Positions 1,601 to 3,504 of a DNA stretch of 64,000 nt are shown one piece after another. The notes below the pieces were generated by a model. The model worked only from the letters and a program-made list of their open reading frames with translations. It was not told where the DNA came from and did not search any database. The first letter of the stretch is position 1, and each line of letters starts with the position of its first letter. Where the stretch lies: assembly GCA_017558005.1 (NCBI GenBank), contig JAFYWN010000014.1:81902-145901 (forward strand), written 5' to 3'. Position numbers and translations under genes: made by a program. This DNA comes from Kiritimatiellia bacterium (GTDB lineage Bacteria > Verrucomicrobiota > Kiritimatiellia > RFP12 > DVOR01).

Positions 1601-1749
1601 AGATAGGATAGATAAGGCAGGGGAGCAGTATGAGCATGAGGCAGGGGGCGGTGTGAAGTGGTGGCGTGGCGAGTCCCCCTAAATAATCTATCCATAATCC
1701 ATCTGATAACCTATCTGATAGACGGGCCGTTGCCCGTCTCACCTATCTT
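1601..1749 (+). repeat. RAYT-associated repeat, divergent copy D
   Basis: Starts with the GGATAGATAAGGCAGG head shared by all copies. It diverges in the middle, where the first hairpins are lost, and keeps the tail: TCTATCCATAATC, then the GACGGGC-CGTT-GCCCGTC hairpin and a CTATCTT end. It has the same orientation as copies A, B, C and E. The closest partner is copy E downstream of the transposase gene. Confidence 0.7.
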
Positions 1750-1792: not shown

Positions 1793-1951
1793 GGATAGAT
1801 AAGGCAGGCAACGGCCTGCCGCTCAGATAGGTGAGGGATAGATAAGCGGCTCCGCCGCGGATACCATGAGGCGACCATCTGCGAGGAGCCCTAAATAACC
1901 TATCCATAATCTATCTGACAGACGGGCCGTTGCCCGTCTCATCTATCTTTT
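1793..1951 (+). repeat. RAYT-associated hairpin repeat, copy A
   Basis: A full-length unit of about 155-160 bp with three GC-rich inverted repeats in order: GGCAGGC-AACG-GCCTGCC, then GCGGC-TCC-GCCGC, then GACGGGC-CGTT-GCCCGTC. TCTATCCATAATC lies between the last two. A short spacer containing AAAGAAACCTCGTCCGCG joins it to copy B, and the same spacer joins copies E and C on the other side of the transposase gene. This architecture resembles REP/BIME elements mobilised by RAYT transposases. Confidence 0.8.
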
Positions 1952-1972: not shown

Positions 1973-2127
1973 GGATAGATAAGGCAGGCAACAGCCTGCC
2001 GCTCAGATAGGTGATTGATAGATAAGCGGCTCCGCCGCGGATACCATGAGGCGCCATTTGCGAGGAGCCCTAAATAACCTATCCATAATCTATCTGACAG
2101 ACGGGCCGTTTCCCGTCTCATCTATCC
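1973..2127 (+). repeat. RAYT-associated hairpin repeat, copy B
   Basis: A full-length unit with the same three hairpins as copy A. It begins at GGATAGATAAGGCAGG and ends at the GACGGGCCGTTTCCCGTC hairpin and ATCTATCC. It differs from A by a few substitutions and a short deletion near 2054. Confidence 0.8.
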
Positions 2128-2240: not shown

Positions 2241-3203
2241 ATGAGTACGAAGTCTTATGATTTACCACGACATTCATCTAATGTGAGCCTTATCACGGCT
2301 GCGCATCATGATTTAAAGGGGACAGGGCGTTATTTTGTGACGATGGTCACAGAGGGGCGTCAGCCAGTACTCTCTGTTATTTGTCAGGGTGGGTATGCGC
2401 GCTGGACGGAGGTGGGACAATGTGTGAATGATGAGATTCATGCATTGACAGAGAAATGGCCGATTGCGATTGATCGTTTGGCGATTATGCCAGATCACAT
2501 CCATCTCTGCTTTCGTGTGACTGAAAATCTTAATCAGAGTATTTTGAAGATTTTGTCGAGTTGTCGTAGTTTTGAACAGAAAGAGGCGGGGTTTAATAGT
2601 GATACAAAGCGTCTATGGGAGCGTAAATACCGTTTATTTGTAGCATTTAATCGAGAGGCTTATGGGCGTTGTATTGACTATACTGCGGCGAATCCACTGA
2701 GGTGGTGGTTGACGCATCATCATTCAAAGATACTGACACCACAGATGGTCGAACACGCGCTATTACCGAGTGAATTTCAGTGGCAGGCTGTTGGACATTT
2801 GACACTCTTAGAGTCGCCACTCTTTTTCCCAATTATCATCCATCGTAAAGATACACCCGAACAGGTGGCACAATTAGCGTCTCAAGCTTTACGTGTGGCA
2901 CAAAATGGCGGCGTGATAGTCGGAGGTTTTATTTCTCAAGCAGAAAAGGCTCTATTGAAAGCATTGTATGCGAAAGTGCCAGACTTGAAATTAATTAGAC
3001 TTGTGCCACATACATTGTCTGGTTATAAACCTCCTGCACGTGTGGTAGATGCCTTTGCACAGGGACGGCGTTTATTGTTAACTTCTGTACCTGGGGTACA
3101 AGAAGATGAGACTTGTAGTCGGGTGGTTTGTCTACGTCATAATGCTGTGGCAGAACACTTTGCTGAGACATCTAAGGGACTTTGTTTACCTGAGATAGGA
3201 TAG
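2241..3203 (+). CDS. REP-associated tyrosine (Y1/HUH) transposase with extra C-terminal Rossmann-like domain
   Basis: A 320-residue protein. Residues 25-160 match the IS200-like Y1 transposase fold. They include the HUH metal-binding motif MPDHIHL (His86, His88) and a likely catalytic tyrosine, Tyr147, in IDYTAANPLRW. RAYT enzymes of this type cut single-stranded REP hairpins, and five hairpin repeats flank this gene. Residues about 180-305 form a second domain: WQAVG, a strand FFPIII, VIVGGFISQAEKALL, LIRLVPHTL, then AFAQGRRLLL and CLRHNAVAEHF. From memory this resembles the DprA/Smf (SLOG) Rossmann fold seen in some gut transposases. That assignment needs a profile search. I chose ATG 2241 because the upstream in-frame codons only translate the repeat and pyrimidine tract. 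The stop codon lies inside repeat copy E. Confidence 0.8.
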   Translation: MSTKSYDLPRHSSNVSLITAAHHDLKGTGRYFVTMVTEGRQPVLSVICQGGYARWTEVGQCVNDEIHALTEKWPIAIDRLAIMPDHIHLCFRVTENLNQSILKILSSCRSFEQKEAGFNSDTKRLWERKYRLFVAFNREAYGRCIDYTAANPLRWWLTHHHSKILTPQMVEHALLPSEFQWQAVGHLTLLESPLFFPIIIHRKDTPEQVAQLASQALRVAQNGGVIVGGFISQAEKALLKALYAKVPDLKLIRLVPHTLSGYKPPARVVDAFAQGRRLLLTSVPGVQEDETCSRVVCLRHNAVAEHFAETSKGLCLPEIG

Positions 3204-3326
3204 ATAAGGCAGGGGTGTGTTAAGTGGCGGTGTGTGGAGAGCCTAAATAATCTATCCATAATCCATCTGATAACCTATCCATAACCTATCTGACAGATGG
3301 GCCGTTGCCCGTCTCATCTATCTTTT
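3196..3326 (+). repeat. RAYT-associated repeat, divergent copy E
   Basis: Begins at AGGATAGATAAGGCAGG, whose TAG is the stop codon of the transposase gene. Like copy D it lacks the first two hairpins and keeps the tail with the GATGGGC-CGTT-GCCCGTC hairpin. The spacer AAAGAAACCTCGTCCGCG then leads into copy C, just as A leads into B. Confidence 0.7.
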
Positions 3327-3348: not shown

Positions 3349-3504
3349 GATAGATAAGGCAGGCAACAGCCTGCCGCTCAGATAGGTGATTGATAGATAA
3401 GCGGCTCCGCCGCGGATACCATGAGGCGACCATCTGCGAGGAGCCCTAAATAACCTATCCATAATCTATCTGACAGACGGGCCGTTGCCTGTCTTGTCTA
3501 TCTT
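3349..3504 (+). repeat. RAYT-associated hairpin repeat, copy C
   Basis: A full-length unit nearly identical to copies A and B, in the same orientation. It carries the GGCAGGC-AACA-GCCTGCC, GCGGC-TCC-GCCGC and GACGGGC-CGTT-GCCTGTC inverted repeats. Confidence 0.8.

Follow-up and report, generated by a model that had tools for sequence, protein, structure and literature searches.

It is an open question what role REP transposases (RAYTs) play in their hosts and in what way REPs are spread. The window, that is, the whole stretch of 64,000 nt analysed here from a Kiritimatiellia bacterium (contig JAFYWN010000014.1), contains a RAYT gene whose protein continues well beyond the transposase core. 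The initial annotation regarded this C-terminal part as a Rossmann fold of the DprA/Smf type. The questions pursued here are what the tail is, where else it occurs and what it could contribute to a RAYT.

The gene and its transposase core

The gene and the main elements of its N-terminal domain are located in the window as follows.

2241..3203, plus strand: RAYT-DprA fusion gene (ORF with ATG at 2241, stop codon ending at 3203, 320 aa)
2319..2729, plus strand: Y1/HUH REP-transposase domain (residues ~27-163; from Pfam, NCBIfam and the match to 4er8, Z 12.3)
2496..2504, plus strand: HUH motif H86-I-H88 (read from the translation; invariant in relatives)
2679..2681, plus strand: catalytic Tyr147 (read from the translation; invariant in relatives)

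The N-terminal part is a RAYT, with an HUH motif, a single catalytic tyrosine, a Y...NP motif and the RAYT/Y1 fold. In the window protein the HUH motif reads M83-P-D-H86-I-H88 and the tyrosine motif Y147-TAANP. The three residues from which the initial annotation had recognised an HUH/Y1 REP transposase (His86, His88 and Tyr147) are invariant in an alignment of 43 relatives, as is N151. Pfam Y1_Tnp matches this part with an E-value of 4.9e-5. The NCBIfam model REP_Tyr_transpos (NF047646) matches with an E-value of 4.4e-13 and 49.4 bits, which lies below the model cut-off of 80 bits, and the same holds for most relatives. The top structural match of the AlphaFold model in VIA is the E. coli REP transposase 4er8. 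Across the fused set, the motifs mostly take the form MPDH[LFVI]H...Y[IL]xDNP and are followed by ~150 more residues.

Comparison with homologues supports ATG 2241 as the probable true start. Another in-frame ATG at 2046, 5' of this position, falls in repeat DNA. Between 2224 and 2241 there is no Shine-Dalgarno-like sequence; a TACAAT element is located ~7 nt upstream of the ATG, so that a leaderless transcript is conceivable.

Homology and predicted fold of the tail

The C-terminal part corresponds to the following feature.

2733..3194, plus strand: DprA-type Rossmann domain (residues ~165-318; from profiles, the AlphaFold model and structural matches)

The tail is a genuine domain. A run-on or frameshift artefact as its source is ruled out by its conservation in four phyla. 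The extra domain proposed in the initial annotation is thus real and contains the three sequence motifs quoted there; its edges, given as 180-305, proved slightly wider. No Pfam model matches residues 165-320 of the window protein. Its tail does not reach the gathering score of PF02481, and this model matches the tails of two out of 45 relatives, weakly (best E-value 0.024). A profile built from 45 tails and compared with all PDB chain sequences, however, retrieved H. pylori DprA with an E-value of 2.3e-6, the next match being at 0.13. Profile-profile alignment of the tail with the DprA proteins of relatives is collinear along the whole tail and scores 36.1, compared with a mean of 13.0 (sd 2.2, maximum 20.5) for 100 column-shuffled controls and 14.5 for the reversed profile.

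The predicted structure gives the same picture. The AlphaFold model of the fusion protein has a mean pLDDT of 90, with values of 92-97 across nearly all of residues 165-311 and a dip near 281-290. With this model, Foldseek finds DprA (4ljk, E-value 2.5e-5), and VIA finds ShosA (Z 11.1) and DprA (Z 8.0-10.0) over 138-143 aligned residues. When a stand-alone homologue of the domain was folded alone, Foldseek places 1-14 were all DprA or ShosA. In VIA, DprA and ShosA reach Z 9.6-13.7 with the isolated domain, whereas all other entries stay at or below 5.8; members of the wider SLOG set (YpsA and the N-terminal domains of TRPM2/TRPM8) are among these lower scores. The shuffled-column and reversed controls, together with this gap in Z, rule out a chance resemblance to Rossmann folds. 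By these four independent lines from profiles and predicted folds, the tail is therefore a DprA-type Rossmann domain, as the initial annotation had supposed. It is counted as DprA-derived rather than as a DprA, since the dimer zone is lost and PF02481 is not reached.

Residues kept and lost relative to DprA

Binding of ssDNA by H. pylori DprA depends critically on R52, K137 and R143 (PMC4489622). S. pneumoniae DprA binds ssDNA through R115 and a basic patch that includes K175 and K202 (PMC4066776). S. pneumoniae R115 is equivalent to H. pylori R52, and K202 to K137. Several positions of the window protein can be placed against these residues.

2844..2846, plus strand: R202, counterpart of the arginine in the DprA GSR/GTR motif (H. 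pylori R52, S. pneumoniae R115; PDB profile alignment)
2943..2945, plus strand: E235, invariant acid at the D position of the DprA SGxAxGID motif (profile-profile alignment)
3120..3122, plus strand: R294, counterpart of H. pylori K137 and S. pneumoniae K202
3141..3143, plus strand: N301, counterpart of N in the DprA RNR motif (profile-profile alignment)

Among 126 distinct fused tails, R202 is present in 115, position 294 is R in 105, N301 is present in 123 and E235 in all; the eight stand-alone tails described below keep all four residues (8/8 each). R276 is nearly invariant. The equivalence of R294 and K137 is based on one profile alignment and on equal spacing, both residues lying seven positions before the N of the RNR motif or its counterpart. 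The R preceding N in DprA RNR is not kept, and H. pylori R143 has no conserved counterpart; position 300 of the tail is L, M or H.

In S. pneumoniae DprA, the dimer zone comprises residues 249-275, and RecA is contacted by the triad E235/D243/E265 and by M238 (PMC4066776). The isolated domain aligns in VIA to S. pneumoniae DprA 70-241 only, so that no counterpart exists for the dimer zone or, at a minimum, for D243 and E265. In the predicted fold, the tail thus ends before the part that bears the DprA dimer zone and most RecA contacts. Between paralogues, the tail (58% identity) is as conserved as the nuclease (51%); with respect to dN/dS, synonymous sites are saturated in this comparison.

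REP hairpins around the gene

The gene is surrounded by eight copies of a 37-nt REP, CTATCTGANNGRCRGGCYGTTGCCYGYCTYATCTATC, five on the 5' side and three on the 3' side, in mixed orientation.

1711..1747, plus strand: REP hairpin 1
1794..1830, minus strand: REP hairpin 2, inverted
1911..1947, plus strand: REP hairpin 3
1974..2010, minus strand: REP hairpin 4, inverted
2090..2126, plus strand: REP hairpin 5
3286..3322, plus strand: REP hairpin 6
3349..3385, minus strand: REP hairpin 7, inverted
3466..3502, plus strand: REP hairpin 8

Genome-wide, 20 copies were found and none in the reversed-pattern control. As single strands, these REPs fold into hairpins of 7-8 bp (z -4.4 to -5.2). A paralogous RAYT-DprA gene of the same genome (G000:C14:54789; L109:4472-6075) has nine copies of a different 51-nt repeat in its flanks, which suggests a separate repeat family for every paralogue. 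At 36 out of 111 related loci, repeats common to the left and right flanks exceed the 99th percentile of the control, where ~1% would be expected by chance. Several of these repeats are obvious hairpins, Bacteroidota included.

Distribution of the fusion

All six RAYTs of the window genome carry the tail, and all six tails found in it are fused to a Y1 domain. Homologues of the window protein were detected by protein search in 42 of 59 relatives. A scan of GTDB genomes yielded 80 loci in Kiritimatiellota, Lentisphaerota, Verrucomicrobiota and Bacteroidota as well as in one Neomarinimicrobiota MAG, and in this independent scan 78 of 83 tail ORFs are fused to the domain with HUH and Tyr. The tail is accordingly present in close homologues. 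The Bacteroidota carriers belong to Prevotella, Muribaculaceae and Bacteroidaceae, which agrees with the mention, in the initial annotation, of similar tails in transposases of other gut bacteria. The cultured strain Prevotella lacticifex JCM 34664 has a member (L180), which opens the class to testing.

The general RAYT model took 30 Y1 loci, 12 with the tail and 18 without, and the tail thus marks a subset of RAYTs. A tree of the Y1 core needs a single change to divide tailed from tail-less sequences (SH-aLRT 99; only five tail-less sequences after filters).

A phage or plasmid gene was rejected as an explanation: no relative was found in viral contigs (two query proteins), in phages (window protein) or in plasmids (Prevotella relative as query). 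A defence system was likewise rejected, as PADLOC recognised neither the window protein nor a stand-alone tail. PF02481 has a single match in the window genome, to a small YspA/DUF2493-like SLOG protein (G000:C10:20103-20483, L096). The fusion was also considered as the replacement of a broken chromosomal dprA and this was dropped, the PF02481 match being a separate small SLOG protein and no dprA remnant. No canonical dprA was found in the window genome, an absence that proves nothing with an assembly that is 90% complete.

Stand-alone tails

At least seven genomes of the genus encode free-standing tail proteins without a transposase. These proteins comprise ~165-230 aa including a linker and share a conserved C-terminus, D-P-[AG]-A-I-F-L. 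Stand-alone tail genes are found at L098, L099, L100, L101, L103 and L104 (e.g. L098:5657-6163). The gene is placed after der or after a gene for a NeuD-like acetyltransferase, and in six of seven genomes it is directly followed by a gene for a 71-aa protein with the C-terminus EEPPPPHY, which we take to be SlyX-like. xseB was a first guess for this downstream gene and was dropped. The DDPAAIFL end of the stand-alone tails was also considered as a mimic of the SSB tip; the two are not the same, the SSBs of the genus ending in DLPF or PLPF.

In a tree of the tails, which is midpoint-rooted and has long branches, the stand-alone tails nest inside the fused forms. In an eighth case (G014), the stand-alone tail clusters with that of the window protein (support 98). 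From this grouping the nuclease seems, with moderate confidence, to have been lost at least twice. The stand-alone copies suggest that the domain has its own use after nuclease loss.

Relation to known systems

The core resembles the RAYT/TnpA-REP family (E. coli 4ER8; subclasses 2.1-2.8, PMC6006769) in its HUH and single-Tyr architecture, its Y...NP motif and its inverted REP flanks. Median lengths of the tabulated RAYT subclasses range from 151 to 325 aa, and none of these subclasses has the DprA-type tail of the fusion (PMC6006769). Subclass 2.3, at 325 aa, differs by its NHYH motif, a 61-aa distal domain and the lack of REPs (PMC6006769). Subclass 2.6, or RAYT group 5 of Bacteroidetes, overlaps in host phylum and has atypical REPs, but has a median length of 179 aa, the motifs NH[LIV]H and YIH[QN]NP and an extension of only 29 aa (PMC6006769). 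The TnpA-Y1 superfamily classification of 2018 contains no subclass with a DprA-type tail, and neither DprA nor Rossmann appears in its text (PMC6006769). The tail is therefore no known RAYT extension listed there, and the fusion adds a RAYT class missing from this classification. No description of the RAYT-DprA fusion was found in the open-licence full-text literature; an account outside it may exist.

With DprA/Smf (H. pylori 4LJK, S. pneumoniae 3UQZ), the tail shares the Rossmann fold, the GSR-type arginine, a SGxxxGID-like segment and the helix with the N of RNR. It differs in its position within a transposase, its ~20% identity and the lack of the dimer-zone end of the fold, of a SAM or DML1 domain and of R143. 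ShosA, a DprA-like antitoxin (8ZVA, 9VZO), is the structure that the isolated domain matches best (Z 13.7, 141 residues), but no partner toxin gene was seen beside the fusion.

Proposed function

RAYTs cleave single-stranded REP hairpins via a 5'-phosphotyrosine and can join strands (PMC8266576). For the fusion we cautiously favour a protein in which the Y1 domain nicks single-stranded REP hairpins and the DprA-type tail acts as a monomeric ssDNA grip beside the nick, a proposal drawn from homology, predicted fold, pocket residues and the REP setting. The Y1 domain would recognise the flanking REP hairpins once they are single-stranded and cleave beside them through Tyr147. The DprA-type domain, as a monomer, would retain ssDNA adjacent to the hairpin or to the end set free by the nick. 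Such a grip could increase affinity, keep the 3'-OH in place for strand transfer or control activity. A monomeric grip is in line with the DprA monomer of S. pneumoniae, whose binding to dT20 is just 2.6-fold weaker than that of the dimer (PMC4066776). The conserved pocket residues point to a possible handling of ssDNA or a nucleotide by the tail. The invariant E235 and the nearly invariant R276 exceed the needs of plain ssDNA binding and could belong to a ligand or enzyme site.

The latter would fit a tail that serves as a SLOG-type sensor or enzyme, in which nucleotide binding or hydrolysis switches the nuclease on and off. E235 is found in 134 of 134 tails and R276 and N301 in nearly all, the lower-scoring structural matches include YpsA and the TRPM2/TRPM8 domains, and cADPR isomers are bound by SLOG domains in Thoeris ThsA (PMC11204291). 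Such a sensor is nevertheless unlikely, as DprA and ShosA, rather than LOG or ThsA, are structurally nearest by a wide margin, and E235, aligned with the D of the GID motif of DprA, may be an inherited structural acid. Regulation by the tail may also proceed without contact to ssDNA: the C-terminal tail of E. coli TnpA-REP is regulatory, and removal of its last 13 residues raises activity (PMC8266576). The DprA domain is attached at the same end of the core and might be a mere autoinhibitory or structural cap that replaces this short tail. It makes a rather poor candidate for a cap, however, since the DprA pocket residues, needless in that role, rank among the most conserved tail positions and stand-alone tails occur without any nuclease to be capped.

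The homology to DprA, a RecA mediator, further raises the idea that the tail brings RecA or a different recombination protein of the host to the REP once it is nicked, comparable to DprA in transformation. The domain stops, however, where S. pneumoniae DprA has residue 241, and this idea is quite improbable. RecA loading as by full DprA is unlikely because the tail stops before the dimer zone and most RecA contacts.

Beyond the hairpin nickase with an ssDNA grip preferred here for the single protein, a wider interpretation is offered tentatively. These widespread domesticated transposases of PVC bacteria and Bacteroidota might each join a nickase guided by hairpins to an integral ssDNA holder derived from DprA and so provide self-contained ssDNA processing. 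The holder might have been freed repeatedly as a host gene at the slyX locus, and a second, recombination-mediator-like role of DprA folds would be indicated. With members in several phyla and a domain derived from DprA, this large RAYT class offers a concrete, testable link between REP processing and single-strand handling and a case of the DprA fold reused outside transformation.

Additional observations

Positions 218-925 of the window, just 5' of the REP cluster, encode a protein of secreted type in which WNKYKNGWATSTFSV occurs twice as an internal duplication. Positions 962-1531 encode a signal-peptide protein with a PEP-CTERM-like C-terminus (VPEPTALALLALGVAGFALRRR). Two of the 80 loci encode, directly 3' of the RAYT-DprA gene, a second DprA-like protein of small size with the motif SGF[HS]S..E.DV (L130:4315-4671 and L149:4306-5004). 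The fused RAYTs at L058, L063, L049 and L024 contain long repetitive insertions (e.g. APSAPSPSTPPAVPGPAVPGP repeats), either between the HUH and Tyr motifs or N-terminally, which are perhaps repeats inserted into the gene.
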